Source: Alphaproteobacteria bacterium
GTDB lineage: Bacteria > Pseudomonadota > Alphaproteobacteria > Rhodobacterales > Rhodobacteraceae
Assembly: GCA_030424645.1 (NCBI GenBank)
Contig: JAUHWP010000019.1
Coordinates: 1-36,628, forward strand
DNA length: 36,628 nt
Reading direction: 5' to 3'
Shown here: piece by piece, positions 3,696-24,020 of the stretch
Position numbering within the stretch: position 1 is the stretch's first letter
Layout: each line of letters starts with the position of its first letter
Notes under the pieces: model-generated
What the model was told of the DNA's origin: nothing
Seen by the model: the letters and a program-made list of their open reading frames with translations, nothing else
Databases searched by the model: none
Program-made: the position numbers and the translations under genes

Positions 3696-4565
3696 ATGCT
3701 TCCACCCCTCGACAGCGATCTGATGCGCGGCTTTCTGGCGGTCGCGGATGCCGGGTCTGTCACCCGTGCGGCGGACCAGCTTGGGCGCACTCAGTCAGCC
3801 ATTTCCATGCAGATCCGCAAGCTGGAGGACTGTCTTGGCCAAGACATCTTCATCCGCGAGGCGCGCGGCGTTCGTCTGACCGAAAGGGGCAAACAGCTTC
3901 TGCCCTATGCCCGGCGGGTTGTTGGCCTTCTGGATGAGGCGGCAACCGCCCTGCGTGAAAAGCCGCTGTCCGGTCCGGTACGCGTCGGGATCCCTGACGA
4001 GTATGTGCAAGGTATCCTGCCTGCGGTCCTTGCCTCGTTTTCGCAGCGCCATCCCGAAACGCAGGTCACAATACGCTGCGATTTCAGCGCGCCGCAGCTT
4101 GCCGCATTGAAAGCCGACAAGATCGACCTTGCGGTGGTTTACGAAGGCCACAGCGAAGATGGGGCCGAGGTTCTGGCCGTTGACCCGACGGTCTGGGTCA
4201 CTTCGGTGGCCCATGCCCAACATCTGCGCAGCCCATTGCCGATATCAGTTTACTTCAGCTCGGACTGGTGCCGCGATTACGCGCTTCATTCGCTGAAGCA
4301 GATCGGGATCGACCACTATCTTGCATTTGAATGCGATACGTCGGCCAGCATGCGCAGCGCGGTCATCAACGGCATTGCCATTGCGCCCCTGGCCCGAAGC
4401 TCGATCCCGCCCGGATGTCGGGAACTGACCGCGGAAGATGGGTTCATCACAATCGACAATGCGCGGGTTGTGTTGCATCGCAATCCCGCAGGCACGTCGC
4501 CGACGATTGACGCGATGGTCACAACGCTTCGTGACGCGTTCTGCCCGCTGGCCGGAACCTCCTGA
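3696..4565 (+). CDS. LysR-family transcriptional regulator
   Basis: 289 residues. An N-terminal winged helix-turn-helix (about residues 7-65, including GSVTRAADQLGRTQSAISMQ) binds DNA, and the rest is a LysR-type effector-binding domain (from about residue 90, VRVGIPDEY). It stands alone, divergent from the DUF1127 gene. LysR proteins usually act on the divergent gene or on themselves, but nothing here identifies an effector. The sequence AATAGGTATCA just before the start (3682-3692) recurs upstream of the next regulator gene. Confidence 0.9.
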   Translation: MLPPLDSDLMRGFLAVADAGSVTRAADQLGRTQSAISMQIRKLEDCLGQDIFIREARGVRLTERGKQLLPYARRVVGLLDEAATALREKPLSGPVRVGIPDEYVQGILPAVLASFSQRHPETQVTIRCDFSAPQLAALKADKIDLAVVYEGHSEDGAEVLAVDPTVWVTSVAHAQHLRSPLPISVYFSSDWCRDYALHSLKQIGIDHYLAFECDTSASMRSAVINGIAIAPLARSSIPPGCRELTAEDGFITIDNARVVLHRNPAGTSPTIDAMVTTLRDAFCPLAGTS

Positions 4566-4617
4566 GATTTGCGCCCGGAGGATTTGACCTTGAGTCTCAT
4601 GCTGCATCTGTTAAATA

Positions 4618-4632
4618 GGTATCATAGATACC
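4618..4632. promoter_or_regulatory. Palindromic operator candidate upstream of nsrR-cco operon
   Basis: GGTATC-ATA-GATACC is a perfect 6-bp inverted repeat with a 3-base centre, 21 bases before ATG 4654. Some further flanking positions also match. Its place suggests an operator for the Rrf2-family protein encoded next (autoregulation and control of the oxidase operon). It is not the classic enterobacterial NsrR consensus, so the binding protein is an inference. Confidence 0.45.
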
Positions 4633-4653
4633 AATATAGGAATGCGGAACCAC

Positions 4654-5070
4654 ATGAACCTCACCTCTTTCACCGACTATGGGCTTCGCATGCTGATGCG
4701 GATGGCAAGCGCCCCGGGGCAGGCATTCTCGACAGCTGATCTGGCCGAAGAATTCAAGCTGTCGCGCAACCACCTGGCCAAGATCATGCAGCGGCTGGCG
4801 CAAGGCGGCATCGTCGAGACCCGGCGCGGGGTGAATGGCGGGGCCGTCCTGCGGTGCAGTCCTGCCGAGATCCGGCTTGGGGATGTGGTGCGACTGCTCG
4901 AACAGGGGCAGTCGCTGGTCGAATGTTTCCGCCCGGAAGGGGGGGAGTGCACGATCGAGGGCTGTTGCCGACTGAAGTCCCGCCTGCGGAAAGCGGAAAG
5001 CCGGTTCATCGAAGATCTGAACCAATCGACGCTTGCCGATATCGCCCTTCCCCAACGGGTGGCGGCGTGA
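4654..5070 (+). CDS. nsrR: NsrR-like Rrf2-family Fe-S transcriptional regulator (nitric oxide sensor)
   Basis: 138 residues. The N-terminus MNLTSFTDYGLR is typical of NsrR, followed by a winged helix with LSRNHLAKIMQRLA. Cluster-ligand cysteines are Cys91, Cys99 and Cys105 (spacing C-x7-C-x5-C, as in the Bacillus-type NsrR), with an extra Cys104. NsrR holds an Fe-S cluster that reacts with NO and then releases its DNA targets. I chose ATG 4654; ATG 4642 is in frame but adds four residues that the family lacks. The oxidase gene ccoN begins 19 bases downstream, so this regulator probably heads the operon. Other Rrf2 proteins (IscR, RirA) are less likely from the N-terminal motif and cysteine spacing. 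Confidence 0.82.
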   Translation: MNLTSFTDYGLRMLMRMASAPGQAFSTADLAEEFKLSRNHLAKIMQRLAQGGIVETRRGVNGGAVLRCSPAEIRLGDVVRLLEQGQSLVECFRPEGGECTIEGCCRLKSRLRKAESRFIEDLNQSTLADIALPQRVAA

Positions 5071-5089
5071 TGAGGAAAGGCGGGACAGG

Positions 5090-6715
5090 ATGACATCGAC
5101 GCTTACCGTTTCCGAACGTCATGTCGGCTTGTTGCTGTCGATCCTGCTTGCCTTGATGGGTTTCGCCATGGCGGCAGCGGCGCGTCACGGTGTGATGGCT
5201 GTGCACGGGTTCATGGCGGTGGGGCTTGGAATGGCTTTGGCGTTCGTGCTTGGCGGTGCGCTTTACGATCCCGAGCCATCGGCGGATCGGCTGCGCCGCT
5301 ACTACGACGCGCCGACCCGGTTCGGGATCGTCATGACCCTGATCTGGGCGATGATCGGCATGGGGGTCGGCGTCTGGGTTGCGGCGCTGCTTTATTGGCC
5401 CGAGGGAACACCGCTTTGGCCCGCCACCAGTTTCGGCAGGCTGCGCCCGGTGCACACGACGGGCATCATCTTTGGATTCGGAGGCAATGCCCTGATCGCC
5501 ACCTCGTTCCATGTTCTGCAACGCACATCGCGCGCGCGGCTGGCGGGCAGCATCAGCCCATGGATCGTGCTGATCGGGTTCAACCTGTTCTGTGCCTGGG
5601 CCGTCACCGGCTATCTGATGGGATCGACCCAATCCAAGGAATACGCCGAGGCCGAATGGTATGCCGATCTTTGGCTGGTGGTGGTCTGGGTGACATATTT
5701 CATCCTGTATATCCGCACACTTGCCCGAAGGGCCGAGCCGCATATCTATGTCGCCAACTGGTATTACATGGCCTTCATTCTGGTGGTGGCGATGCTGCAT
5801 ATCGTCAACAACCTGGCCCTTCCCGTGCGCTGGACAACGGCAGAAAGTTTCCCCATCTGGTCGGGGGTGCAGGATGCGATGGTGCAATGGTGGTATGGCC
5901 ATAACGCGGTTGCCTTCTTCCTGACCGCCGGGTTCCTTGGGATGCTCTATTACTTCCTGCCGGTGCGGTCTGGACGGCCGATCTGGTCGTATCGCCTGTC
6001 CATCGTCAGCTTCTGGGGCATCACCTTCTTCTATATCTGGGTCGGGTCGCACCACTTGCATTACACGGCGCTGCCTTACTGGGCGCAGACGCTGGGCATG
6101 ACCTTTTCGGTGATGTTGCTGGTGCCAAGCTGGGCGTCGGCGGGCAATGCCATCGCCACGCTGAACGGGGCGTGGCACAAGGTGCGCGATGACGCGACGC
6201 TGCGTTTCATGTTCGTCGCCGCTGTGTTTTACGGGCTGTCCACGTTCGAAGGCTCGTTCCTTGCCATTCGCCCGGTCAACTCGCTCAGCCACTATACCGA
6301 CTGGACCGTGGGCCATGTTCATTCCGGCACGCTTGGCTGGGTGGCGATGATCGTTTTTGGCGCGATCTATACGCTGGTTCCACAACTTAACGGCAAAACC
6401 GAAATGGCATCACCCCGCGCCGTTGAATGGCATTTCTGGCTCGCCGTGGCGGGGACGCTGATTTACGTCGTGTCGATGTGGAACGCCGGCATCACGCAGG
6501 GCCTCATGTGGCGGGCCTATGACGCGAACGGCGCGCTGTCCTACAGCTTTGTACAGTCGGTCGAGGCGATGGCCCCCTTCTATCTGCTGCGCACCATTGG
6601 CGGGGCGCTGTTCCTGACCGGGGCTGTTGTCTGCGCGTGGAACTGCCGCGCCACGATGCGCGGTGCGGCGGGTCATGCCACCGACCGCCCCCTTGTCGCG
6701 CAACCGGCGGAGTGA
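5090..6715 (+). CDS. ccoN: cbb3-type cytochrome c oxidase subunit I (CcoN)
   Basis: 541 residues, about 12-14 membrane spans. It is the catalytic subunit that reduces oxygen to water at a haem b3-CuB centre. Visible ligands: His122 (PVHTTGIIFGFGGNA, low-spin haem), CuB ligands His271 (WWYGHNAVAF) and His321-His322, the cross-linked tyrosine equivalent Tyr315 (FYIW, six residues before the HH pair), and His409/His411 (TVGHVHSG). Start ATG 5090 follows GGACAGG; an in-frame codon at 5033 lies inside nsrR and is rejected. The catalytic residues look intact. The position directly behind nsrR and the lack of ccoGHI suggest a second, specialised copy rather than the housekeeping cbb3. Confidence 0.93.
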   Translation: MTSTLTVSERHVGLLLSILLALMGFAMAAAARHGVMAVHGFMAVGLGMALAFVLGGALYDPEPSADRLRRYYDAPTRFGIVMTLIWAMIGMGVGVWVAALLYWPEGTPLWPATSFGRLRPVHTTGIIFGFGGNALIATSFHVLQRTSRARLAGSISPWIVLIGFNLFCAWAVTGYLMGSTQSKEYAEAEWYADLWLVVVWVTYFILYIRTLARRAEPHIYVANWYYMAFILVVAMLHIVNNLALPVRWTTAESFPIWSGVQDAMVQWWYGHNAVAFFLTAGFLGMLYYFLPVRSGRPIWSYRLSIVSFWGITFFYIWVGSHHLHYTALPYWAQTLGMTFSVMLLVPSWASAGNAIATLNGAWHKVRDDATLRFMFVAAVFYGLSTFEGSFLAIRPVNSLSHYTDWTVGHVHSGTLGWVAMIVFGAIYTLVPQLNGKTEMASPRAVEWHFWLAVAGTLIYVVSMWNAGITQGLMWRAYDANGALSYSFVQSVEAMAPFYLLRTIGGALFLTGAVVCAWNCRATMRGAAGHATDRPLVAQPAE

Positions 6716-6719
6716 CCCC

Positions 6720-7448
6720 ATGTTGAGACTGCATTACAATCTGGAAAAAATCTCGATGGGGCTTGTGGCGGCGATCATCGTGGCGGCATCTATCGGTGGT
6801 CTTGTCGAAATTGCGCCGTTGTTCACCATCGACGAAACGGTCGAGCTTCCCGATGACCTGCGCCCCCATACGCCGCTGGAACTTGCCGGGCGCGAGATCT
6901 ATATCCGCGAAGGGTGCTATGCCTGCCACAGCCAGATGGTGCGCAGCCTGGCCGATGAGCTGGACCGCTATGGCCCCTATTCCCTGGCAGCGGAAAGCGC
7001 ATATGACCACCCGATGCTCTGGGGGTCGAAACGGACCGGGCCAGACCTTGCGCGGCTGGGCGGCAAGTATTCGGACGATTGGCATGTGGCGCACCTGATC
7101 GACCCGCGCAGCGTGGTCCCGGCTTCGATCATGCCGTCCTATCCCTGGCTGACACGTCCGCTTGATACTGATCTGTTGTCTGACTCGCTGGCCACGCTGG
7201 CCCGGCTTGGCGTGCCTTATGACCAGGGTATGATTGCAGCGGTAGAAGCCGATGCGCTGGCGCAAAGCCGCCCCGACAGCGATGTGGTGGACGGGTTTCA
7301 GGAGCGATACGGAGAGCAGCCCGCCATTCGCGCCTTCGACGGAAACCCGTCGCGGCTGACCGAAATGGACGCAGTGGTGGCCTATCTCCAATCGCTGGGA
7401 ACATTGACGGATGCGCCCTATCGGATCCTGGCGGAGGGCAGCCAATGA
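6720..7448 (+). CDS. ccoO: cbb3-type cytochrome c oxidase subunit II (CcoO), monohaem cytochrome c
   Basis: 242 residues, the usual CcoO length. One N-terminal membrane anchor (about residues 12-33) is followed by a periplasmic domain with a haem c site CYACH (Cys66, Cys69, His70) and a likely axial Met in ASIMPSYPWL. It passes electrons to CcoN. ATG 6720 comes right after the ccoN stop; the longer in-frame reading from 6627 overlaps ccoN and is not used. The stop overlaps ccoQ (ATGA, 7445-7448). Confidence 0.94.
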   Translation: MLRLHYNLEKISMGLVAAIIVAASIGGLVEIAPLFTIDETVELPDDLRPHTPLELAGREIYIREGCYACHSQMVRSLADELDRYGPYSLAAESAYDHPMLWGSKRTGPDLARLGGKYSDDWHVAHLIDPRSVVPASIMPSYPWLTRPLDTDLLSDSLATLARLGVPYDQGMIAAVEADALAQSRPDSDVVDGFQERYGEQPAIRAFDGNPSRLTEMDAVVAYLQSLGTLTDAPYRILAEGSQ

Positions 7449-7609
7449 CACATGACACCCTTGTCTATCTGTCCAAGACGGTTGGCCTGATCTGGTTGAT
7501 GGGGTTCTTTCTGATCGTCGTCATCCGCGCCTACAGCCCTTCGCGGCGAAAGGCGTATGACGCGGCCGCCCGGTCCGTGTTGCAAGACAAGGGTGACGGA
7601 GATGAGTAA
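7445..7609 (+). CDS. ccoQ: cbb3-type cytochrome c oxidase subunit CcoQ
   Basis: 54 residues, starting MTHDTLVYLSK. One membrane span (about residues 13-27, GLIWLMGFFLIVVI) is followed by a charged tail with SPSRRKAYDAAA, the usual CcoQ layout. CcoQ is a small non-catalytic subunit that stabilises the complex. It overlaps the ccoO stop by four bases, and its own stop lies inside the beginning of ccoP (ATG 7602), so all four subunits are translationally linked. Confidence 0.85.
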   Translation: MTHDTLVYLSKTVGLIWLMGFFLIVVIRAYSPSRRKAYDAAARSVLQDKGDGDE

Positions 7610-8513
7610 CCCGACCGATCCAAGGCAACTGCCGGGCGCTGACCCGCATACGGGCAATCGCCAGGTCGATCCGGTCACCGGATACGACACGACGGGGCAT
7701 GACTGGGGCGGCATCACCGAGCTGAATACCGCGTTTCCGAAGATCGTCATCTGGGCGCTGGTGCTGACCTTCCTGTATTCGGTGGTGGCCTGGATTTTGC
7801 TGCCAGCCTGGCCGACAGGGCGCGATTACACGCGCGGGCTTCTGGGGTTGGATCAGGGCACACAAGCGGTCGAGGGCTATCGCAAACTCAACGATGGCCG
7901 GAAGGATTGGCTGTCGCGGTTTGCGGGCGACGATCTTGCAGCCTTGCAGTCCGATTCAGATTTGATGGCAACGGCAATGCCCGCCGCCGCGCGCCTGTTT
8001 GCGGATAACTGCGCGGCCTGCCACGGCACGACCGGACAGGGCGGGCCGGGTTTTCCGGTGCTTTCGGACGGGACATGGTTGTGGAGCGGCGATGCGGACG
8101 AAATCGCCACGACAATTCGCCACGGCATCAACGCTGACGACCCCGATACCCGCTTTGCGGAAATGCCTGTCTTTGACTGGCTTGAAGGGGCGGAGCGGAC
8201 GGCTCTGGCGCAGTTTGTTTCGGATTTGCCGAACGGGCCTGCGGATTTCGAAAGCCCCGTCGGCACGCTTTTCATCGACAATTGCAGTTCCTGCCATGGC
8301 GACACCGGCGACGGCGGTCTTGGGATCGGCGCGCCATCACTCACGGACACGGTGGCGATCTATGGTCAGGATGCGGAAACGGTGATGGAAACCTTGCTGA
8401 AAGGACGTCGAGGCGTGATGCCCGCATGGTCGGGTCGCATGTCGGATGCCGAAATCAACCTTCTGACCCTTTACGTCGCACATCTTGGTCAACCGGGCGG
8501 GGTGGCGCAATGA
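7602..8513 (+). CDS. ccoP: cbb3-type cytochrome c oxidase subunit III (CcoP), dihaem cytochrome c
   Basis: 303 residues. The N-terminal part has the CcoP signature (TTGHDWGGITELNTAFP) and one membrane span (about 47-68). Two cytochrome c domains follow, with CAACH (Cys137, Cys140, His141) and CSSCH (Cys228, Cys231, His232) and candidate axial methionines (RFAEMPVF near 188 and RGVMPAW later). It takes electrons from soluble cytochromes or the bc1 complex. ATG 7602 overlaps the ccoQ end by eight bases; the reading from 7557 is an extension inside ccoQ. The stop overlaps the next small gene (ATGA). Confidence 0.95.
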   Translation: MSNPTDPRQLPGADPHTGNRQVDPVTGYDTTGHDWGGITELNTAFPKIVIWALVLTFLYSVVAWILLPAWPTGRDYTRGLLGLDQGTQAVEGYRKLNDGRKDWLSRFAGDDLAALQSDSDLMATAMPAAARLFADNCAACHGTTGQGGPGFPVLSDGTWLWSGDADEIATTIRHGINADDPDTRFAEMPVFDWLEGAERTALAQFVSDLPNGPADFESPVGTLFIDNCSSCHGDTGDGGLGIGAPSLTDTVAIYGQDAETVMETLLKGRRGVMPAWSGRMSDAEINLLTLYVAHLGQPGGVAQ

Positions 8514-8668
8514 CGCCGCGTGTTCAGAAACGGTTGGCGGTCGGGGCCGCGCTGACCGTTGTCGCCCTGTTTGCCGGGGCGAACCTGCACCTGTTGACGG
8601 TTGCCCTGCAATCCCAGCCCGAGTGCCGGGAGGCCGCGGATCTGATCCCGGCCAAACGGGCCTGCTGA
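8510..8668 (+). CDS. Small membrane protein of the oxidase operon, unknown function
   Basis: 52 residues. A short basic N-terminus (TPRVQKR) leads into one hydrophobic helix (about 9-33) and a tail with two cysteines (SQPECREAADLIP and a C-terminal RAC). It begins within the ccoP stop (ATGA), so it is made with the oxidase. I recognise no family. CcoH would be much longer, so it is not that. It could be an assembly or stabilising factor; the paired cysteines in the likely periplasmic tail would suit a redox or copper role, but this is a guess. Confidence 0.7.
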   Translation: MTPRVQKRLAVGAALTVVALFAGANLHLLTVALQSQPECREAADLIPAKRAC

Positions 8669-8681
8669 GAAGGAGAACGGG

Positions 8682-9479
8682 ATGCTGGAACCACTACCGA
8701 CCCTTCGCCGCCCGAAACGGACCGAGTCGCCATATGCACGCCACCTGCCGATGTCGGCCGCCCAGGGCTGGCTGGCAAAAGGGTGGCGGGACGTGCGGAT
8801 GGCACCGGCATCCAGCCTGGCCTATGGCTTGTTTCTGACCCTGATCTCGTACGCCGTTCTGTGGATACTCCATGCAAGCCATATGCTGTATCTGGCGCTG
8901 CCCGCGATTTCGGGCTTTCTGATCGTTGGACCCTTTCTGGCGATCGGCCTGTACGAAAAAAGCCGCAAACAGGCGGCAGGCGACGGGGTTACGCTTTCCG
9001 AGATCCTTGCCTTTCGGCCCGCCTCGGGTGGGCAGCTGGCCTATGCGGGGCTGTTGCTTGGTCTGCTTGTCCTTTTCTGGCTTCGTGCCGCGGACCTGCT
9101 GTATGCCCTGTTTTTCGGCCTTACTCCTTTCCCGGGCGCAGAGGAGGCGTTGACCAATGCGTTGACGACGCCCCGGGGATGGGCGCTGATCGCGACGGGC
9201 ACCTTGGTGGGCGGGCTGTTCGCAGCCTTTGCCTTCGCGATCAGCGTCTTTTCGATTCCGATGCTGGTGTCGCGCAGGACCGATGCGCTGACCGCCATGG
9301 GTCTGAGTTTTGTCATGACGGTGCAGAATCTGCGCCTCATGCTGGTCTGGGGTCTGTTCGTCGCCCTGGGATTGGGCCTGTCGGTCGTGACCGGCCTGAT
9401 TGGGCTGATCGTCCTGTTCCCTGTTCTGGGTCATGGCACATGGCACGCCTGTCAGGCGATCGTGGAGGGTGAAGATTGA
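8682..9479 (+). CDS. DUF2189 integral membrane protein
   Basis: 265 residues with about six hydrophobic spans. The start of the membrane region (GWRDVRMAPASSLAYGLFLT) and the LVGPF-like loop (FLIVGPFLAIGLYEKSR) fit the DUF2189 family of predicted membrane proteins, which has no assigned biochemical role. ATG 8682 has an AAGGAGAACGG ribosome site. Its stop overlaps ccoS (TTGA, 9476-9479). DUF2189 proteins often sit near cytochrome oxidase genes as far as I recall, which suits a role in oxidase assembly or membrane organisation. Confidence 0.8.
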   Translation: MLEPLPTLRRPKRTESPYARHLPMSAAQGWLAKGWRDVRMAPASSLAYGLFLTLISYAVLWILHASHMLYLALPAISGFLIVGPFLAIGLYEKSRKQAAGDGVTLSEILAFRPASGGQLAYAGLLLGLLVLFWLRAADLLYALFFGLTPFPGAEEALTNALTTPRGWALIATGTLVGGLFAAFAFAISVFSIPMLVSRRTDALTAMGLSFVMTVQNLRLMLVWGLFVALGLGLSVVTGLIGLIVLFPVLGHGTWHACQAIVEGED

Positions 9480-9676
9480 GCCTTCTGCTTCTCATACCGC
9501 TTTCGATCGGACTTGGCCTGTTGGGGCTGTGCGCCTTCCTTTGGGCGCTCAGGACCGGACAGTTCGATGATCCCGATGGTGCCGCATGGCGCGTCATTCC
9601 CCCTGAATACCCACTTGAAACGGAAGGAAAGAACGATGACAACCTGGCTCCCAACGCTCAAGACCGCAACGCCTGA
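9476..9676 (+). CDS. ccoS: cbb3-type oxidase maturation protein CcoS
   Basis: 66 residues. One N-terminal membrane span is followed by the family motif FLWALRTGQFDDPDGAAWR, diagnostic for CcoS. CcoS is needed to insert haem b and copper into CcoN. The start is TTG 9476, overlapping the DUF2189 stop by four bases; no ATG is available before the conserved helix. The C-terminal tail is somewhat long and overlaps the following HTHP gene by 41 bases. Its presence without ccoG, ccoH and ccoI implies that those factors come from another locus. Confidence 0.9.
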   Translation: MSLLLLIPLSIGLGLLGLCAFLWALRTGQFDDPDGAAWRVIPPEYPLETEGKNDDNLAPNAQDRNA

Positions 9677-9869
9677 AGAGGGGTATGACCTTGCTGTCAA
9701 ACTCGCACGCGTTGCCGTGAAGCTGACCCAGCCCGACGCAGGGGTGCGCGACCGGTTGCGACCGGAATATGCCGAGGATTCCGACGCCCTGATTGCTGTC
9801 AGTCAGGTGGTGGCGACCCATTTCGCCACTGTCGCGGCTGCAAACGGATATTGGCGGGACAATACATGA
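9636..9869 (+). CDS. Hexameric tyrosine-coordinated haem protein (HTHP)
   Basis: 77 residues. The sequence (WLPTLKTATPEEGYDLAVKL, then RDRLRPEYAEDSDALIAVSQ) matches what I know of HTHP, first described from the marine roseobacter Silicibacter pomeroyi. HTHP is a small protein that forms hexamers with one haem per subunit bound by a tyrosine, and it shows peroxidase and catalase activity. The candidate haem ligand here is Tyr45. ATG 9636 has a strong GGAAGGAAAG site and lies within the end of ccoS. Its place in an NsrR-headed oxidase operon suggests a role in peroxide or NO stress at the oxidase; that link is inferred. Confidence 0.82.
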   Translation: MTTWLPTLKTATPEEGYDLAVKLARVAVKLTQPDAGVRDRLRPEYAEDSDALIAVSQVVATHFATVAAANGYWRDNT

Positions 9870-10141
9870 GCGACGTTGAACGAAACGGGGACCGGTTCAT
9901 CGTGGACGCCATGGTGCTGGCCGACGCGTTTGGCCTGTCCCCCGAAGAAACACGGACCCGGATGCAGGGCGGTCAGATCGCGTCGCTTTGCGAACAGGGT
10001 CAGGACAAGGACGCGGGGCGTTGGCGATTGACATTTCGCCACCAGGGCCGCGCGCTGCGCCTGACCGTGGATGCCGATGGTAAGATCATAAGCAAGAGCA
10101 CTTACCCGGTGGGTCATCAGAACACGGTCGCAGAGGCGTGA
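9866..10141 (+). CDS. Small conserved protein, probably DUF6522
   Basis: 91 residues, soluble, starting at ATG 9866 inside the HTHP stop (ATGA). It has an N-terminal segment that looks like a short helical reader (FIVDAMVLADAFGLSPEETR) and a C-terminal part with RWRLTFRHQGRALRLTVDAD. I think this is the DUF6522 family, which lacks an assigned function, but I cannot confirm it. A single cysteine (SLCEQG) is present. Coupling to HTHP suggests that the two proteins act together. Confidence 0.65.
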   Translation: MSDVERNGDRFIVDAMVLADAFGLSPEETRTRMQGGQIASLCEQGQDKDAGRWRLTFRHQGRALRLTVDADGKIISKSTYPVGHQNTVAEA

Positions 10142-10268: not shown

Positions 10269-10274
10269 AAGGTG

Positions 10275-11156
10275 ATGCCACAAGACCACAAACGCGATGT
10301 TCCGAGTTATTTGACCACCAAAGAGGTGGCAGAGCTGCTGCGCGTGAAGGAACGCAAGGTCTATGACCTTGCCGCCGCGGGCGAAATTCCGCATCGGCGC
10401 ATCACGGGCAAGCTGATCTTTCCAAGGGCCGAGTTGCTGGGCTGGATCAACGGGGATGACGCCCCCGTGACGGGTGCGCGCCCTGCGGTGCTGACCGGGT
10501 CGCATGATCCGCTGCTGGAATGGGCGGTGCGCGAAAGCGGATCGGGGCTGGCCACGCTGTTCAACGGCAGCCGTGCCGGGCTTGACTGTTTCGGCGATGG
10601 GCAGGCCGCGCTGACCGGGCTGCACATTCCCGGCGGGACGGATTGGAATGTGGATATCGTGGCGGCGCAGGGGATACCCAACTGCGTTCTGATTTCATGG
10701 GCCAAGCGCGCGCGGGGGCTGGTTCTGTCACCGGACACCGCCGACACCATCACGGGTATGGCCGATCTGAAGGGCAAGCGTGTCGTGCAGCGCCAGCCCG
10801 GTGCCGGAGGGGCGACGTTTTTCGAAGGCATGCTGAAGCGTGAAGGGGTTGATCCCTGCGACCTGCAAATGGTTGGCGGCCTAGCCTATACCGAACACGA
10901 GGCCGCGGCCTCGGTCGCTGCGGGAGAGGCGGACGCCGCCACGGGGATCGAGGCGATGGCCCGCCAGTTCAGCCTTGGTTTCCTGCCTTTGACCGAAGAG
11001 CGGTTTGACCTTCTGATCGACCGGCACAGCTATTTCACGCCGCCGGTGCAGGCCCTTCTGGCCTTTGCCCGCACGCCTGCCTGTCATGAAAAGGCGGCGC
11101 AGATGGGCGGCTATGATCTGGAGGAGCTGGGCGTGGTGCGCTGGTTGCCGGACTGA
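10275..11156 (+). CDS. One-component regulator: excisionase-type HTH plus periplasmic-binding-protein-like domain
   Basis: 293 residues. Residues about 10-60 are a MerR-superfamily/excisionase helix-turn-helix (YLTTKEVAELLRVKERKVYD, then KLIFPRAELLGWI). The rest is a PBP-like domain of the type found in molybdate/tungstate-responsive regulators (for example GADAATGIEAM-like and LKGKRVVQRQPGAGG segments). No signal peptide is present, so it senses its ligand in the cytoplasm. It is convergent with the tupBCA tungstate importer and close to formate dehydrogenase, so tungstate, molybdate or a pterin cofactor are plausible ligands. A GTG at 10272 is also possible; ATG 10275 sits better behind GGGCAAGG. 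Confidence 0.82.
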   Translation: MPQDHKRDVPSYLTTKEVAELLRVKERKVYDLAAAGEIPHRRITGKLIFPRAELLGWINGDDAPVTGARPAVLTGSHDPLLEWAVRESGSGLATLFNGSRAGLDCFGDGQAALTGLHIPGGTDWNVDIVAAQGIPNCVLISWAKRARGLVLSPDTADTITGMADLKGKRVVQRQPGAGGATFFEGMLKREGVDPCDLQMVGGLAYTEHEAAASVAAGEADAATGIEAMARQFSLGFLPLTEERFDLLIDRHSYFTPPVQALLAFARTPACHEKAAQMGGYDLEELGVVRWLPD

Positions 11157-11213
11157 CCATCGGACCGGACGCGCCGCCAGAGGGGTGCGCCCGGTTGTCA
11201 GGTTGGGGTCAGG

Positions 11214-12038
11214 TCACTGGGCGTTCGGGAAGAACAGTTGCTGGCCATCCACTTTGTAGGAGGCAATTGCCTCTTGCCCTTCGTCCGACAGGACCCAATC
11301 GACGAATTGTTGCCCCAGGTCGGCTTTCACATTGGGGTGTTTTTCCGGGTTCACCAGGATGATGCCATACTGGTTGAACATCTTTTCATCACCCTCGATG
11401 GCGATCTGGTAATCCCCCTTGTTGCCGAAGCTGATCCAGGTGGCGCGGTCGGTCATGATATAGGCGCCCATGCCGGTGCCCGTATTCAGGGTGGCGCCCA
11501 TGCCCGAACCGGTCTCGCGATACCAGCCGCCCGAAGCTGCGCCCACATCGACACCGGCTTCGGCCCAAAGCCCCAGTTCGGCCTTGTGGGTGCCGCTGTC
11601 GTCCCCGCGCGAGGCAAAGGGTGCTTCGGTCTCGGCAATCATGGTCAGCGCGGCAACGGCATCCGACATGCCAGCCACACCCGCAGGGTCTGCGGGCGGG
11701 CCGACAATGACGAAGTCGTTATACATGACGTCGCTGCGGCTGACGCCCTGACCGTCGGCGACGAACTTCTCTTCCGCCGGTTTCGCGTGGACAAACAGCA
11801 CATCGCCATCCCCATTGGCGGCGTTCTTGATCGCCTGACCGGTTCCCACGGCAACCACGCGCACCTCGATCCCCGTTTTGTCGGTGAATATCGGCAGGAT
11901 GTGGTCGAACAATCCCGAATTCTGGGTCGAGGTGGTGGATTGCACAACGATGAAATCCTCTTGTGCCGCGGCGGGACCTGCGAGGCCGAGGGCCAGAAGG
12001 CCAGCGGCGGCAAAGCCAAGGAAACTGCGTCTGAACAT
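11214..12038 (-). CDS. tupA: Tungstate ABC transporter substrate-binding protein TupA
   Basis: 274 residues. The mature part begins with the TupA pattern (VVQSTTSTQNSGLFDHILP, then GTGQAIKNAANGDGDVLFVH). TupA binds tungstate with very high affinity in the periplasm; ModA-type molybdate proteins differ in these motifs. The signal peptide ends near AAAQED and carries FRRSFLG, a possible twin-arginine motif. ATG 12038 is preceded by AGGAG seven bases away; ATG 12044 is too close to that site. It is the last gene of the tup operon on this strand, 31 bases after tupC. Confidence 0.9.
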   Translation of the reverse strand: MFRRSFLGFAAAGLLALGLAGPAAAQEDFIVVQSTTSTQNSGLFDHILPIFTDKTGIEVRVVAVGTGQAIKNAANGDGDVLFVHAKPAEEKFVADGQGVSRSDVMYNDFVIVGPPADPAGVAGMSDAVAALTMIAETEAPFASRGDDSGTHKAELGLWAEAGVDVGAASGGWYRETGSGMGATLNTGTGMGAYIMTDRATWISFGNKGDYQIAIEGDEKMFNQYGIILVNPEKHPNVKADLGQQFVDWVLSDEGQEAIASYKVDGQQLFFPNAQ

Positions 12039-12069
12039 GATCATACTCCTATCATGATTGGTGTTTTTG

Positions 12070-12864
12070 TCAGGGGGTTGCAGGAACGAACAGGCGACCG
12101 CCAAGCCATGCCCGCGCAGCCTGGGATCGCGGGTTGTCCAGCACTTGTGCAACCGGTCCGGTTTCGACCACCCGTCCGCCATGCAGGAAGACCAGATCGT
12201 CGCCCAGCCTGCGGGCCTGGCCCGCGTCATGCGTGACCACGATAATCGTCGTGCCGGTTTCACGCGCGTCTTCGATCATCTGTTCGATGGCCTGGGTCGA
12301 CGCGGGGTCGAGGCTGGCGGTCGGTTCATCCAGAAACAGCATACGCGGCGCGCAGACCAGGGCGCGCGCCATTGCAAGGCGCTGTTGTTCGCCACCCGAC
12401 AGGACGCGGGCGGGCTTGTCCTTCAACGCATCAAGGCGTGCCAGCGCAATCGCCTCGGTTTCGCGGGTCTTGCGTTCGGCGCCGCGCAGGCCGCGCACCG
12501 ACAGCGCAAAGCGCAGGTTCGCCATCACCGAGCGACGCAGCATCACCGGACGCTGGAACACCATGGCCTGTTGCTGTCGCGCCGCGGCGTCCAGGGGACG
12601 TTCCTGCCATCGGACTTCGCCGCCGGTTGGGGTGATCAATCCGTGCAGAAGGCGCAGCAGCAGGCTTTTACCGCTGCCGTTGGCCCCCATGATCACGGTG
12701 CAGCGGCCCGGGTGGATATGCAGGTCGATCCCGTCGATCAGCCTTTGCCCGCCTGCGTCAAAACACAGGCCGCGCGCTGTCATCAGCGGCGCCGGGCCCA
12801 CCGCCCCGGTGCGCGCCAGCGGGGCGCGCTTTCGTTCGGATATGTTTACGACCGCCTCAGACAT
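12070..12864 (-). CDS. tupC: Tungstate ABC transporter ATP-binding protein TupC
   Basis: 264 residues. It has Walker A (GANGSGKS, about 60-67), signature LSGGEQQRLAMA, Walker B MLFLDEPTASLD and a switch histidine in VVTHD. It energises tungstate uptake together with TupB. The N-terminus carries about 25 extra basic and flexible residues before the core. Its start overlaps the tupB stop by eight bases (12857-12864), so expression is coupled. All catalytic motifs look intact. Confidence 0.9.
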   Translation of the reverse strand: MSEAVVNISERKRAPLARTGAVGPAPLMTARGLCFDAGGQRLIDGIDLHIHPGRCTVIMGANGSGKSLLLRLLHGLITPTGGEVRWQERPLDAAARQQQAMVFQRPVMLRRSVMANLRFALSVRGLRGAERKTRETEAIALARLDALKDKPARVLSGGEQQRLAMARALVCAPRMLFLDEPTASLDPASTQAIEQMIEDARETGTTIIVVTHDAGQARRLGDDLVFLHGGRVVETGPVAQVLDNPRSQAARAWLGGRLFVPATP

Positions 12865-13564
12865 AGGCTGCCCGCGCCGCCGTGCCGCGAATGGCCATCA
12901 AGAGGCCGTTCACGATCACCGCGATGGTCAGAAGGATCATTCCCAGCGCCAGCGCCAGTTGCAGGTTGCCCTTCGAGGTTTCCAGCGCAATCGTTGTCGT
13001 CATCACGCGGGTGACGTGATTGATGTTGCCGCCGACGATGATGACTGCGCCCACCTCGGCCACGGCGCGGCCGAACCCGGCCAGTGCCACGGTCAGAAGG
13101 CTGTATCGCGCATCCCAAAGCAGCGCCAGCACCCGGTCAAGTGGGCCGACACCCAGCGATGTGAACTGTTCGGAATATTCGTTGTAAAGGTCTTCGATCA
13201 CCTGCCGGCTCAGCGCGGCGACGATGGGCGTGACAAGGATGGTTTGGGCGATCACCATCGCCGTGGGGGAGTAAAGCAACCCCAGCACGCCCAGGGGCCC
13301 GGCGGCAGACAGCATCAGATAGACCAGAAGGCCGACGACGACGGGTGGCAGGCCCATCATGGTATTCATCACCACGATCACACCCGCGCGCAGGGGGAAA
13401 CGGAAAGCCCCGACCGTGGCACCCAGCGGAAAGCCGATCAGGCAGGCCACGGCCACCGCCGACAATGTCACTCGCAGGGACAGCACGATGATCTCGATCA
13501 CATCGGGATCCCCGGACAGGATCAGGCCCAATGCCTCGGCCATGATTGCTGAAAAGCTCTCCAT
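12857..13564 (-). CDS. tupB: Tungstate ABC transporter permease TupB
   Basis: 235 residues with about five or six membrane spans. The cytoplasmic loop near residues 140-170 (SLGVGPLDRVLALLWDARYS, then GRAVAEVGAVIIVGGN) is typical of TupB/WtpB-type permeases. It begins at ATG 13564 behind GGGAAGGA. It is the first tup gene and lies on the same strand as the DUF6505 gene 136 bases upstream, so read-through from the Fe-S accessory operon is possible. A dyad covers the region just before the start. Confidence 0.9.
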   Translation of the reverse strand: MESFSAIMAEALGLILSGDPDVIEIIVLSLRVTLSAVAVACLIGFPLGATVGAFRFPLRAGVIVVMNTMMGLPPVVVGLLVYLMLSAAGPLGVLGLLYSPTAMVIAQTILVTPIVAALSRQVIEDLYNEYSEQFTSLGVGPLDRVLALLWDARYSLLTVALAGFGRAVAEVGAVIIVGGNINHVTRVMTTTIALETSKGNLQLALALGMILLTIAVIVNGLLMAIRGTAARAAYV

Positions 13565-13566
13565 TC

Positions 13567-13600
13567 GTGTATTCCTTCCCGTCGCAGGGAAATTTTACAC
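13567..13600. promoter_or_regulatory. 34-base interrupted dyad in the tupB leader
   Basis: On the plus strand the element reads GTGTA-N4-TTCCC-N6-GGGAA-N4-TACAC, with equal spacing on both sides. It starts three bases upstream of the tupB ATG and covers its ribosome site. In RNA the inner arms would form a short hairpin around the Shine-Dalgarno sequence. It may be the operator of a tungstate-responsive regulator or a translational control hairpin. A second small stem (CCTGT/ACAGG, 13622-13636) lies just upstream. Confidence 0.5.
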
Positions 13601-13700
13601 AAGAACGCACAATAATCTATCCCTGTTTCCGACAGGTCGGGGGAAGGCGCCGACGCCGGAGCCTGTTGAAGTCTGAAAAGGTCGGGAAAAGGCGGACGCG

Positions 13701-14198
13701 TCAGGCCCCGGATTTGTCCGGGCTGGCAGGGGTGGCGTGGATGGCGAATTGCTCCAACCCGGCATCCCGCGCTTCGATCACGCGATAGGTTTCGCGCACG
13801 CCAGCCTGGGTCAACGCGCGGGCGACGGTCAGCAGGGTGTTGGCCGCGTGTTCGTCGCACAGGTCAGCCATCTGCGAAAGCTCCTCCAGCGCGACATGGC
13901 GTGCCACCTCGGCCGAGGGGGCGCCGTAGATGTCAACGAAATGCTGCGCCAGTCGGTCGGCCAGCATGTCATGTTCGGCAGGCTCGATCCGGGTGACGGC
14001 AACGAAGGTGACGCGGCCAAAGGTCTCGCACCCCAGCCAGCCATTGGCGAAGGCCTGCCGCGCCTTGCCTGCCAGGTCGGCCTCGCCCCAGTTCGAGAAC
14101 TCGAACCCGCCCGATATGCACCATTCGCCGGTGCGGGCCGGGTTGTGAAAAACGCGGGTGTCGCTTTCGTCGAAATGGATCGCGCGGGCAAGTTTCAT
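13701..14198 (-). CDS. DUF6505-like conserved protein of the formate dehydrogenase locus
   Basis: 165 residues, soluble, no clear catalytic motif. It starts MKLARAIHFDESDTRVFH and contains a conserved-looking GEWCISGGFEFSNW stretch. I associate it with the DUF6505 family seen next to formate dehydrogenase genes in Rhodobacterales; the name is from memory. It overlaps the preceding ligase-like gene by four bases (ATGA) and is the last gene of the Mrp/multi-ferredoxin operon. Two short cysteine-containing spots (EWCIS, ADLCDEH) are present. The function is unknown. Confidence 0.7.
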   Translation of the reverse strand: MKLARAIHFDESDTRVFHNPARTGEWCISGGFEFSNWGEADLAGKARQAFANGWLGCETFGRVTFVAVTRIEPAEHDMLADRLAQHFVDIYGAPSAEVARHVALEELSQMADLCDEHAANTLLTVARALTQAGVRETYRVIEARDAGLEQFAIHATPASPDKSGA

Positions 14199-14899
14199 GC
14201 GGGCTCCGTCATCAGGGCGGTCAGGGGGATCAGACGGGATTTATCGCCGGATTTCAACAGGAGTCCAAGGTTTTCATCCAGCCCGATGAAGGTGCCGTGC
14301 TGCCCTGCGACCGTCAGTTCGGTATCGCGCCCATGTGCCACGCCCAGCCAGTTGGCGTGCAGGCGGGCGGTGCCATCCTCGGCCCAGTCGTTCAGGGCGA
14401 CAAGGGTGTGGCGCACCCATGCTTCAAGCAATGGCTGCGCGTCCACATCGCCACAGCCTTCGGCATAAAGTGCGGTCGTGTCGGGTGTATGCCCCATCTC
14501 GTCCGAGGGCGGCCACAGGTCCAGCGACAGCCCGACGACCAGCCAGTCGGGCACCGCATCCGGGTCACGCCCGGACCCCGCGACGGTCAGCGTGCCACAC
14601 AGCCCGCCATTTACGTAAACCCCGCCGTCCCAGCCCAGATGCACCGCAACTTCGGGTGGGGCCAGGGCGCCCAGGGCGTTCTGGACCCCCAACCCGCAGA
14701 GGGGCAACATGCAGATGGCCTGTCGCAGCGGCACTTCGGGTGCAAACACGATGGCCGCGCGCAGGCGGTCATGGGCCAGGTCATAGGTCACAAGCCCGGC
14801 ATCGCACACCCCGTCTGCCTGCGCACAGGCCAGCGCGAACGGATCCGCGCCAGCGGCATCAAGACCGGAGAACAGCGGGGGAAAGACCGGCTGCGTCAT
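14195..14899 (-). CDS. Biotin/lipoate A/B protein ligase-family protein, probably catalytically altered
   Basis: 234 residues with the general layout of the BPL/LplA/LipB fold followed by a C-terminal DUF4444-like domain (about 185-234). The central segment (WDGGVYVNGGLCGTLTV) aligns with the ligase motif that normally carries the catalytic lysine before GxL, but here that position is Leu. The glycine/arginine-rich nucleotide loop is also not visible. It may therefore bind a ligand or a partner protein instead of attaching biotin or lipoate. It is coupled by ATGA overlaps to mrp upstream and DUF6505 downstream. Confidence 0.75.
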   Translation of the reverse strand: MTQPVFPPLFSGLDAAGADPFALACAQADGVCDAGLVTYDLAHDRLRAAIVFAPEVPLRQAICMLPLCGLGVQNALGALAPPEVAVHLGWDGGVYVNGGLCGTLTVAGSGRDPDAVPDWLVVGLSLDLWPPSDEMGHTPDTTALYAEGCGDVDAQPLLEAWVRHTLVALNDWAEDGTARLHANWLGVAHGRDTELTVAGQHGTFIGLDENLGLLLKSGDKSRLIPLTALMTEPA

Positions 14900-15963
14900 G
14901 CGTGCCCGGCTGCGATCAGCTTTTGCGCCACCTCGCGGAACGCCGCCGCCTGCAGGCTGTCCGGCCTTGAGACAACGATCGGCGCACCGCCATCCGCTGC
15001 CGTCCGAATATCGAGGTGCAGGGGAATTTCCGCCAGCAACGGCACGCCCAGCCTGGCGGCCTCGTCGGCAACGCCACCGTGGCCGAACGTGTGTTCCTCG
15101 TGCCCGCAGTTCGAGCAGATATGCGTCGACATGTTCTCGATCATGCCGATGATGGTGGTGCCCAGTTGATTGAACATATCAATCCCCTTGCGGGCATCCA
15201 GAAGCGCCACATCCTGTGGGGTGGACACGACGATTGCCCCGTCAAGCTGCGCTTTTTGCGCCAGCGTCATCTGCACATCGCCGGTGCCGGGTGGCAGATC
15301 GACGATCAGCACATCCAAAGCGCCCCATTGCACTTGCGTCAGCATTTGCTGCAGCGCACCCATCAACATCGGTCCGCGCCAGACCACGGCCTGATCGTCA
15401 TTCGTCATCAGCCCGATCGACATCATCGTGACGCCATAGTTGCGCATCGGCAGGATCGTCTTGCCATCGGGCGAGGACGGGCGCCCCGACACCCCCAGCA
15501 TACGCGGCTGCGAGGGGCCATAGACATCGGCGTCAAGCAGCCCGACCCGCCGCCCTTCGGCGGCCAGCGCGCAGGCAAGGTTGGCCGAGATCGTGGATTT
15601 GCCCACGCCGCCTTTGCCGGACGCGATGGCGATGATCCGGTCGACGCCCGGCACTTTCTGCGGCCCCGCGGGTTCGGTGCGCCGCCCCGTCCCCAGATCG
15701 GGCGGGGCAGGGGGTGCGCTATGCGCGGTCATCACGACCGACAGCGAGGTGACACCGGGCAGGGCGCCGATTTTTGCCTCGGCCTCGTCCTTTACCTTGG
15801 CATAGGCGGCGGTGTGGCTGCCGGTGGCCTCGATCACGAAGCGCACGGCACCGTCCCCGACGGTCAGCGCCTTGATCACGCCGGCCTCGACCAATGGCGC
15901 ACCGCTGACCGGGTCGGCCAGCGTGTTCAGCGCGGCCAGAACGTCGTCACGACCAAGCGTCAT
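14896..15963 (-). CDS. mrp: Mrp/ApbC-type Fe-S cluster carrier P-loop ATPase
   Basis: 355 residues. The N-terminal 80 residues are a MIP18/DUF59-like domain. The ParA/MinD-type ATPase follows, with the deviant Walker A SGKGGVGKST (about 115-124), VDLPPGTGD near 221-229, and the cluster-binding pair Cys283-x2-Cys286 (ICSNCG). Mrp proteins form dimers that hold a bridging 4Fe-4S cluster and pass it to target proteins. Here the obvious clients are the multi-ferredoxin protein encoded upstream in the same operon and the divergently encoded formate dehydrogenase. A housekeeping copy may exist elsewhere. Confidence 0.93.
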   Translation of the reverse strand: MTLGRDDVLAALNTLADPVSGAPLVEAGVIKALTVGDGAVRFVIEATGSHTAAYAKVKDEAEAKIGALPGVTSLSVVMTAHSAPPAPPDLGTGRRTEPAGPQKVPGVDRIIAIASGKGGVGKSTISANLACALAAEGRRVGLLDADVYGPSQPRMLGVSGRPSSPDGKTILPMRNYGVTMMSIGLMTNDDQAVVWRGPMLMGALQQMLTQVQWGALDVLIVDLPPGTGDVQMTLAQKAQLDGAIVVSTPQDVALLDARKGIDMFNQLGTTIIGMIENMSTHICSNCGHEEHTFGHGGVADEAARLGVPLLAEIPLHLDIRTAADGGAPIVVSRPDSLQAAAFREVAQKLIAAGHA

Positions 15964-15969
15964 ATCGGC

Positions 15970-16158
15970 TCAGCCTTTGATCGTGCCGGTCACGATGTGT
16001 TCAAGATCGACACCGTCGATGGTCAGGACCACGCGGGCTTCGTATTGTTTCCCTTCGGTGCCGTCGGTCTTGCGAAATGCCTCTTCAATGGCCTGTTGCG
16101 AGGTGACGCCGACCTGTTTGAGGAACTTGCGCATGGACATGTTGAAATCGTCGCTCAT
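15970..16158 (-). CDS. DUF6494-like small protein
   Basis: 62 residues, starting MSDDFNMSMRKFLKQVGVTS behind AAGGAGAAG. It resembles a helical N-terminal half (KFLKQVGVTSQQAIEEA) and a beta-rich C-terminal half (YEARVVLTIDGVDLEHIV). I believe it belongs to DUF6494, known from formate dehydrogenase loci of alphaproteobacteria, with no assigned role. It lies between the multi-ferredoxin gene and mrp with short gaps on both sides, so it is part of the same operon. Confidence 0.72.
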   Translation of the reverse strand: MSDDFNMSMRKFLKQVGVTSQQAIEEAFRKTDGTEGKQYEARVVLTIDGVDLEHIVTGTIKG

Positions 16159-16179
16159 ATTTCTTCTCCTTGACTGCGA

Positions 16180-18135: not shown

Positions 18136-18303
18136 CTCGCCCCCTCACTCAGCATAGGTAGGACGGAACGCGGCGGGATGAAAGCCAGTCTTTGGAAATT
18201 CGCAATCAACTCTTGGCCATGTCCGGTTGCCACCCCTTTCTTTTCGCGCGCGTGCGGCTAGACTGAAGGTGGAATTGAACCGTCGCAGCCAGCAGGTGCC
18301 AGC

Positions 18304-18867
18304 TTGTCCTTCGTCTTTCCCAATTCGCAAACGATCCCGCTTGGCGTCGTGATTCGCAAGTCGCCCGGCGTGACCCGGTGGGCGCAATGGACCTGGCGTG
18401 CGGTGGACATGGTGCCGGGGGCGGGGCCTGCATGCTGGACCGTATTGCGACAGGAAGGGCAGGTGACGGATTACCTGGCGGCGACCGTTCCGCTTCAGCT
18501 CTATCCTTCAGATACGGAGGCGTATGTTCACGAGCTGCAGGCGCGTGTGCCGTCGATCTATGTCGTGCTCAGACCCGACCCGGCGCGGCCCGATACCCCT
18601 TGGGCCGTCTCGCTGGCTACCGCTTCACCTTACGAAGCGCAGGACTACTGCGACTCGGATGAAGCCCTGGTGGAAAAGCTGCCGATGCCAGAGGGGATGC
18701 GGGCGTGGATCGCGGATTTCGTGGAACAGCACCATGTCGAAGAGGCATTCGTGAAGCGCAAGCGCAGGAACATGAAGGTGGATGGCGCCGAGGACGGTAT
18801 CGGTGATGCGCGCATCGTGCAGGACAGCGATGTCTATCGCTCGCCCCGCCGCGGGGGGGTGTCGTGA
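18304..18867 (+). CDS. DUF3305 protein of the formate dehydrogenase operon
   Basis: 187 residues, soluble. The start region (IPLGVVIRKSPGVTRWAQWT) is the DUF3305 hallmark. This family is found next to formate dehydrogenase and TorD genes and is thought to help assembly; its biochemistry is unknown. I accept the TTG start at 18304 because the conserved region begins about ten residues in and no ATG or GTG lies just upstream; a weak AGGTG precedes it. It is the first plus-strand gene after the divergent promoter region and overlaps the next gene (GTGATG). Confidence 0.82.
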   Translation: MSFVFPNSQTIPLGVVIRKSPGVTRWAQWTWRAVDMVPGAGPACWTVLRQEGQVTDYLAATVPLQLYPSDTEAYVHELQARVPSIYVVLRPDPARPDTPWAVSLATASPYEAQDYCDSDEALVEKLPMPEGMRAWIADFVEQHHVEEAFVKRKRRNMKVDGAEDGIGDARIVQDSDVYRSPRRGGVS

Positions 18868-20071: not shown

Positions 20072-20133
20072 TCGCCTGCCGATGATTGGGCGGCATGGGC
20101 CGTCACAGGTTACGGGAGAAAGGGAGCATTCGA

Positions 20134-20331
20134 ATGACGGACAAGAAACAGGGCACGACGACCCGCCGCAATTTCCTGAAGATCGCCGGGACGGCCGTGC
20201 CGGGCGCCGTGGCTGCGGCTGCAACCGCAGGCACAGCCGCAGAGGCCGAACCGGCTCAGGTCGATCTGTCATCGCAGGTGATGCAGGACACCGAACACAC
20301 CCGCGCCTATCTGAAAAGCACCCGCTTTTAA
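20134..20331 (+). CDS. Small Tat-signal protein of formate dehydrogenase loci (formate_TAT type)
   Basis: 65 residues. A twin-arginine signal (TRRNFLKIAGTAVPG, about residues 9-23) leads into an alanine-rich stretch and a short tail ending AYLKSTRF. This fits the 'formate dehydrogenase region TAT target' family, which has no proven role but always lies before the alpha subunit gene. A possible role is as an exported subunit or escort. ATG 20134 follows AGAAAGGGAG. It contains no cysteine in the mature part. Confidence 0.85.
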   Translation: MTDKKQGTTTRRNFLKIAGTAVPGAVAAAATAGTAAEAEPAQVDLSSQVMQDTEHTRAYLKSTRF

Positions 20332-20412
20332 GGTCGCGACACCCGCCCATGCATGGCTTGGACGGGCAAACCACATTGATACCAAGCTACCTGCTGTGCA
20401 GGGCCAGGGAGA

Positions 20413-23298: not shown

Positions 23299-23312
23299 GA
23301 AGGAGACCGATC

Positions 23313-23933: not shown

Positions 23934-23959
23934 CCCTGCGCCTGTTCCCCGCGACAAAC

Positions 23960-23983: not shown

Positions 23984-24020
23984 AACCTATCTTGTGTGAT
24001 ATGACCTGAGGATCGCCCGG

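Follow-up and report, generated by a model that had tools for sequence, protein, structure and literature searches.

A predicted nitric oxide-responsive operon joining an NsrR-type regulator, a DUF2189-linked cbb3 oxidase, HTHP and DUF6522 in the Rhodobacteraceae

An oxidase operon headed by an NsrR-type regulator

The 36,628-nucleotide contig JAUHWP010000019.1 of a Rhodobacteraceae bacterium (GenBank assembly GCA_030424645.1), hereafter the window, contains a run of ten genes at positions 4654-10141, in the order rrf2, ccoNOQP, a gene for a 52-residue protein, DUF2189, ccoS, HTHP (hexameric tyrosine-coordinated haem protein) and DUF6522. Comparison with related loci suggests that this run is probably a nitric oxide (NO)-response operon. 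Its control by an NsrR-type repressor responding to NO appears highly likely, and the role that we propose for the oxidase, that of an NO-tolerant enzyme, has about an even chance of being correct. The parts (NsrR regulons, cbb3 oxidases, HTHP) are each known; what is new is their combination, which recurs under one operator.

The first gene, rrf2 (4654..5070, on the plus strand like the whole operon; an alternative ATG start lies at 4642), encodes a putative NsrR-type repressor of the Rrf2 family (Pfam PF02082, 2.4e-34), whose closest solved structure is the NsrR protein of S. coelicolor (5n07, 1.3e-17). Its residues D8, C91, C99 and C105 align opposite D8, C93, C99 and C105 of 5n07, which we take to be the [4Fe-4S] cluster ligand set of that protein; an earlier note on this DNA had pointed out the three cysteines, to which the alignment adds the aspartate. 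The D/C/C/C set is kept in 65 of the 67 Rrf2 proteins from the loci that we fetched, the exceptions being a truncated copy in locus L039 and the protein of L223. Among the NCBIfam equivalog models, NsrR gives the top score (113.7 bits, below its cut-off of 182); the RirA model also matches, at 95.4 bits, and no equivalog cut-off is reached. We write 'NsrR-type' rather than NsrR because the NsrR cut-off is not reached.

The operator and its distribution

Upstream of rrf2 we predict an NsrR-type operator (4617..4635, plus strand), with the palindrome GGTATC-ATA-GATACC at 4618-4632, 21 bp 5' of the ATG at 4654. The region singled out in the earlier note began exactly at 4618, the first base of this palindrome, which the note did not mention. 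In relatives, the operator consensus 5' of Rrf2 is TTAATAGGTATTGTAAATACCAATT. Its core, GTAT-N5-ATAC, agrees with the published NsrR core GYAT-N5-ATRC, and its outer bases differ; the full NsrR consensus of Rodionov and colleagues is gATGyAT-N5-ATrCATc in the accessible part of PMC1274295.

Scanned with the 19-base operator pattern at up to three mismatches, the 3.24-Mb draft genome of the host (208 contigs, 91.6% complete, the window being contig C193) contains two sites, one in the window, with three mismatches, and a perfect copy on contig C143; the reversed pattern gives none. The perfect copy fronts an operon encoding a bacterial globin, a hemerythrin-domain protein (RIC/DnrN-like) and DUF488. 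In relatives this set, whole or in part, is often divergent from rrf2 with one operator in common, as in L047, L129 and the Thioclava locus L237. Because relatives have both halves around one operator, the host seems to have split a single divergent locus in two, each half retaining its operator.

An operator matrix derived from 26 Rrf2-upstream sites (2 of 28 rows, L056 and the second Rrf2 of L047, being omitted) yielded 71 merged sites of at least 14 bits in 3.0 Mb of fetched loci, and none in the reversed sequence. Sixty-five of the 71, L114 being left out of this count, lie within 450 bp of the start of an Rrf2, globin, hemerythrin, NnrS, DUF6522 or HTHP gene. This figure carries a bias, since the genes in question served to select the loci, as did the operator pattern itself for 17 of them (L112-L128). 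Among ccoN loci outside the training set, 13 of the 14 that belong to the window's oxidase clade have a site no more than 3 kb upstream (L136 being from the same organism as training locus L051), as do 10 of 63 loci of the rest of the DUF2189 clade (among them L114, first fetched via the operator pattern) and none of 19 canonical loci. One 36-bit site, at L137 18407-18431, precedes an oxidoreductase-like frame about 1 kb ahead of a hemerythrin-like match, and may mark an additional regulon member.

A distinct clade of cbb3 oxidases

The second gene, ccoN (5090..6715), follows rrf2 after 19 bases, as the earlier note had it, and encodes the catalytic subunit (COX1, 3.3e-106; TIGR00780 above cut-off). 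It is followed by ccoO for the mono-haem c subunit (6720..7448; FixO, 1e-83; TIGR00781 above cut-off), ccoQ (7445..7609; FixQ, 9.9e-15) and ccoP for the di-haem c subunit (7602..8513; Cytochrome_CBB3, 5.4e-22, plus FixP_N; TIGR00782 above cut-off). In an alignment of 107 CcoN rows, reduced from 110 by the removal of identical ones, positions H122, H271, Y315, H321, H322, H409 and H411, which we assume to match the ligands of the P. stutzeri enzyme, are near-invariant. The oxidase set is complete and its ligands are intact, as originally described.

In a tree of these 107 rows, obtained by a quick search with Shimodaira-Hasegawa-like approximate likelihood ratio test (SH-aLRT) supports only and with flagged long branches that include L031_CcoN1 and L187, the DUF2189-linked proteins stand apart from the canonical ones (SH-aLRT 100), and the group from HTHP operons (24 rows) has a support of 99. 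The window oxidase belongs to this distinct DUF2189-linked clade. The DUF2189-linked and canonical clades differ at 33 positions of CcoN (in 90% or more of each clade), and 22 of these lie between residues 285 and 392. All 87 rows of the DUF2189 clade have serine at position 320, directly before the His321-His322 pair, where all 20 canonical rows have proline; the same is seen at Ser389 (87 of 87, against proline in 20 of 20), and Ser307 is conserved in 84 of 87 rows, against histidine in 20 of 20. Rhizobia have third copies of fixNOQP (Sinorhizobium meliloti fixN3) that may belong to the same clade, although we claim no link of these with NsrR and saw only the S. fredii representative L170.

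A DUF2189 gene stands beside 81 of the 83 clade loci counted, and ccoG and ccoH beside none of them (0 of 24 in the HTHP group, 0 of 59 in the others). The lack of ccoGHI, which had been remarked upon in the earlier note, is thus real at this locus but not odd, all the more as the host has ccoGHIS elsewhere. In contrast to the HTHP group, where ccoI is found beside none of 24 loci, it adjoins 46 of the 59 clade loci outside that group; the window oxidase therefore presumably relies on the ccoGHIS genes of the host's canonical locus. This canonical ccoNOQP-ccoGHIS set lies on contig C5 beside an FNR-type gene (named from sequence); its ccoN locus has FNR-type boxes and no operator site, and its CcoN is 54% identical to that of the window, where no FNR-type box was reported in a scan of positions 4001-5200. 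The host also has an aa3-type oxidase on contig C202 (the type being assigned from sequence) and a NorB-type gene apparently split across contigs C53 and C181.

The neighbours of these oxidases also differ. A gene for Rrf2, globin, hemerythrin or NnrS was found within 7 kb at 23 of the 24 loci of the HTHP group, at 27 of the 59 other clade loci and at none of the 19 canonical loci. Among loci with at least 6 kb on both sides, the counts are 10 of 11 against 0 of 15 canonical loci (Fisher p 2e-6). These neighbour counts leave out L114, L187, L225, L226 and the host canonical row L031; L114, a locus with globin and DUF6522, is uncounted because its identical twin L219 had already been removed as a duplicate. 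The gene-match tables on which loci were read omit matches below 40% identity to LysR, FNR, FdhA and TupA (and, in one table, CcoG). We also found a second arrangement under the same operator, DUF6522 <- operator -> globin-DUF488-..-ccoS-ccoNOP-DUF2189, in five loci (L215, L216, L219, L220 and L222).

The distal genes of the operon

Nine of the ten products pass the curated Pfam cut-off, and all ten frames are open. From rrf2 to DUF6522, successive genes are spaced by 19, 4, -4, -8, -4, 13, -4, -41 and -4 bases. The assertion that nearly all of them are joined by stop-start overlaps holds for six of the nine junctions (overlaps of 4, 8, 4, 4, 41 and 4 bases), but three are gaps (19, 4 and 13 bases). 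A terminator scan by consensus found nothing.

The product without a Pfam match is the 52-residue membrane protein (8510..8668), relatives of which occupy the same place in 34 named loci of DUF2189-type cbb3 operons. By eye, most of these share ANxHL...SQPxC and a C-terminal cysteine; as a regular expression the motif is found in 57 of 85, a pattern that misses copies found by BLAST. This conserved small partner is a candidate for a new small subunit or assembly factor. The DUF2189 membrane protein (8682..9479; Pfam, 1.5e-36), companion of this oxidase clade, has a structural model of mean predicted local distance difference test (pLDDT) score 84 with no significant fold match (best E 0.25). 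It is followed by the gene for the assembly protein CcoS, with a TTG start (9476..9676; FixS, 3.2e-18).

The HTHP gene (9636..9869; PF11534, 6.8e-39) encodes a relative of the solved protein 2oyy (8.4e-32), with which Tyr45 and Arg25 align. The DUF6522 gene (9866..10141) is recognised at 3.3e-35 by PF20132 (120 bits against a cut-off of 25); the model of its product (pLDDT 82) has no significant fold match (best E 0.07). All the genes that had been listed after ccoP, Tyr45 of HTHP included, are present. Elsewhere, in L072 and L073, HTHP has a signal-like N-terminal leader and an operator-like site 357-413 bp upstream, and may be periplasmic.

Downstream of the operon, at 10272-25205, the window carries an HTH-PBP regulator, a tungstate-type ATP-binding cassette (ABC) transporter and a formate dehydrogenase cluster, together with DUF6505, biotin/lipoate-ligase-like, Mrp-like, DUF3305 and DUF3306 genes.

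Occurrence in relatives and on plasmids

HTHP was found in 44 of 345 genomes of the family, in which each genus is represented by a single genome, and in 6 of the 385 genomes that sample the class, the window's own included. The family HTHP table retains 46 of 48 rows, a fragment in genome G368 and one sub-threshold row (C105) being omitted. At 11 of these 46 loci, window included, Rrf2, a full-length ccoN and HTHP lie on one strand; within these 11, single genes were not detected in some, namely ccoS in L069 and DUF6522 after HTHP in L054 and L064. At three others Rrf2 and HTHP accompany broken or partial oxidase genes: L035 has a split ccoN with the others present, L037 only ccoS, and L078 pieces of ccoN and DUF2189 with ccoS. 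Nine loci have Rrf2 and HTHP and no oxidase gene, and five have an operator-like site and no intact Rrf2 called. An operator site is found at all 23 HTHP loci with Rrf2, though that of L056, a locus with an Rrf2 just 37% alike, is weak (18.4 bits). HTHP is immediately followed by DUF6522 at 21 of these 23 loci, at 2 of the 5 with the operator only and at 1 of the 18 with neither.

Since regulator-HTHP loci without an oxidase exist, HTHP and DUF6522 can stand without it. In the genus of the host, 10 of 20 other genomes have an HTHP match, and the oxidase is found at none of the 11 loci read. One of the same genus (L028, genome G006) retains an rrf2 that looks intact, fragments of both ccoN and HTHP, and DUF6522, followed by HTH-PBP and tupA-like genes that match those of the window; it looks like a locus that has lost its oxidase.

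HTHP regions were read in 5 of 26 plasmid records, and three of the five carry the module: those of Thioclava nitratireducens, Roseibium aggregatum and Roseinatronobacter sp. S2, with operators of 35.2, 43.2 and 35.0 bits, respectively. The annotations lack ccoS in Roseibium aggregatum and DUF6522 in Roseinatronobacter sp. S2, and the HTHP regions of the Ruegeria pomeroyi and Hoeflea plasmids have no module. On the Roseinatronobacter plasmid (L240), the module and nosZ-nosD-nosL share one stretch, with transposases between. A gene order confined to this genome would have undermined the original proposal; the same arrangement is found again in further genera and on the named plasmids, and is for this reason more than chance.

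A proposed model of the response to NO

From the gene content, cluster residues, operator conservation and co-occurrences described above, we infer the following scheme of NO sensing, repression, induction and enzymatic roles. The NsrR-type [4Fe-4S] Rrf2 protein, product of the first gene, would repress its own operon through the palindrome at 4618-4632. NO would destroy its cluster and lift the repression, leading to synthesis of a second cbb3-type oxidase and of the soluble HTHP/DUF6522 pair, and the same regulator would control in trans the globin-hemerythrin(RIC-like)-DUF488 operon on C143. The oxidase would most likely keep electrons flowing to O2, perhaps reducing some NO, while NO inhibits the FNR-linked cbb3 and aa3 oxidases; globin, hemerythrin, HTHP and DUF6522 would clear the NO or mend the damage. 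For the oxidase we therefore favour the role of an NO-tolerant back-up enzyme, which might also consume NO as a side or main activity. Reduction of NO and of nitrite is described as possible for a cbb3 oxidase in the accessible text of the review PMC8780969. To weigh the idea that the oxidase might stand in for NO reductase, norB matches were counted: they occur in 5 of 15 genomes with the oxidase and in 8 of 12 oxidase-less Rrf2-HTHP genomes (Fisher p 0.13, the match in G150 being partial). Two proposals of the earlier note, NO-responsive NsrR-type control and an oxidase distinct from the FNR-linked one, are supported on comparative grounds only: the former by the cluster residues, the operator and the neighbours.

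Could the whole clade be specialised for NO? The NsrR-type control of part of it and the CcoN changes fixed near the active site would be compatible with a clade of NO-tolerant oxidases or de facto NO reductases, HTHP and DUF6522 forming a new NO- or nitroxyl-handling pair. We put this broader reading forward tentatively, as possible and rather doubtful.

Beyond the selection bias already mentioned, and the way in which L114 was fetched, a number of observations weigh against NO control through this operator. At 29.1 bits, the window operator scores lower than all but one of the 26 training sites, and a consensus promoter scan found no promoter. Neither operator nor Rrf2 is present at 18 of the 46 family HTHP loci and at 9 of the 11 loci read in the genus, and the HTHP gene of the R. 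pomeroyi megaplasmid has MarR, MOSC and redoxin genes as neighbours and no operator. Nor does NO control extend to the whole of the wider DUF2189 clade: no Rrf2, globin, hemerythrin or NnrS gene is seen nearby at 32 of the 59 loci, and a complete FNR-type box stands upstream at 3 of 60 named loci (L167, L171 and L178). The loose 15-base core is unspecific, with a module gene beside only 5 of the 17 places fetched (L112, L113, L114, L115 and L122), and core matches with one mismatch are numerous elsewhere, for example 19 strand matches in genome G356. The GGCATTTCAAATACC matches in L117-L120 were rejected as operators: they fall inside a frame resembling valyl-tRNA synthetase, named by eye, and L116 is alike. 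We likewise discarded the core matches of L121 and L123-L128, where no module gene adjoins the site. A further match with one mismatch lies at G000:C204:33620.

Alternative explanations

The oxidase may instead be a passenger, captured 3' of the regulator and playing no part in NO physiology, while HTHP, DUF6522 and the globin genes constitute the actual NO response. The remaining genes are indeed kept without any oxidase gene at 9 of 46 loci, what is left of the oxidase in L028, L037 and L078 points to recurrent loss, and the plasmid modules adjoin transposases. However, the same oxidase clade is found under the same operator in the second gene order described above, and in the Rhizobiales-type loci L139, L143, L153 and L166 Rrf2 lies directly 5' of the same oxidase type, with weaker sites of 19.6-24.8 bits. 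We regard a passenger oxidase as rather unlikely. Still less probable is a regulator that senses iron or Fe-S status in the manner of IscR or RirA, the oxidase then being induced by iron limitation or oxidative damage. The fold and cysteines are common to Rrf2 proteins, and the 95.4 bits of the RirA model come, like the score of NsrR, without any equivalog cut-off being reached; yet NsrR tops both the equivalogs and the solved structures, and the neighbours of the operator are globin, hemerythrin and NnrS genes. Moreover, the host has a separate IscR-like protein, encoded on contig C180 5' of a cysteine-desulfurase-like frame, the only other Rrf2 protein above cut-off in this 91.6% complete draft.

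The earlier note also considered induction by peroxide, with HTHP guarding or serving the oxidase as a catalase or peroxidase. HTHP electrocatalyses peroxide reduction, as stated in the accessible part of PMC4813847, but the recurrent neighbours to which we gave names (not every cluster received one) include no recognised peroxide regulator or peroxide enzyme, and HTHP persists under the operator where there is no oxidase to guard. The HTHP-DUF6522 pair comes after the regulator at the nine loci that have no oxidase gene and at two more that keep remnants (L037 and L078), and five more HTHP loci have an operator-like site and no intact Rrf2 called. Such loci, with HTHP-DUF6522 still under the operator although the oxidase is missing or broken, weaken the guard idea, and we consider the peroxide version improbable. 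As for the formate dehydrogenase cluster and tungstate-type transporter downstream (10272-25205), they could suggest an operon that serves to pass formate electrons to the oxidase. A regulator and a minus-strand transporter intervene, however; among the loci compared, HTH-PBP (10272) adjoins the operon only in the same-genus L028, and FdhA is 10 kb off, beyond most of the flanks. Such a link is hardly credible. An NsrR-type response to NO remains our preferred explanation.

Significance and comparison with known systems

Two orphan proteins, HTHP, whose structure is solved, and DUF6522, are here assigned to a predicted NO regulon, and a group of alphaproteobacterial cbb3 oxidases is predicted to be switched by NO rather than oxygen. 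HTHP thereby gains a testable role, which would be a physiological one if it forms an NO/nitroxyl-handling pair with DUF6522; the word 'physiological' is absent from the accessible part of the HTHP paper PMC4813847. Thioclava nitratireducens 25B10_4, for which a named record exists, offers a strain in which to test both predictions. In the open-access literature (titles, starts of abstracts and a few passages, subscription papers and RegPrecise being outside the scope), neither this oxidase type nor HTHP nor DUF6522 was found paired with NsrR, and there were 0 papers for 'DUF6522' or for 'DUF2189' with 'cbb3'.

The predicted regulon resembles the NsrR regulons described in the accessible part of PMC1274295 in its Rrf2 repressor, its hemerythrin-type (dnrN/ytfE) and nnrS targets and its GYAT-N5-ATRC core. 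It differs in the outer operator bases and in the addition of a whole cbb3 oxidase, HTHP and DUF6522. That 2005 survey, as far as its accessible part goes, reported no alphaproteobacterial nsrR orthologue except in R. capsulatus E1F1, and Paracoccus denitrificans is counted among bacteria with NsrR control in the accessible part of PMC12774639 (2026). Canonical ccoNOQP-ccoGHIS operons are under FNR, as for FnrL of Dinoroseobacter shibae (PMC5398030, accessible part). The enzyme family, the subunits and the near-invariant metal-ligand histidines and tyrosine are the same, but the window CcoN falls in a separate clade at 54% identity, ccoG and ccoH are absent, DUF2189 and the 52-residue protein are added, and an NsrR-type operator replaces the FNR boxes.

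The HTHP of Ruegeria pomeroyi (2oyy; organism as given in the accessible part of PMC4813847) belongs to the same family as that of the window, with the aligned tyrosine and arginine. The closest counterpart of the locus as a whole is L237 of Thioclava nitratireducens 25B10_4, which has the complete same operon with divergent globin-hemerythrin and DUF488 genes and an operator of 35.2 bits, and differs in being plasmid-borne and annotated gene by gene.

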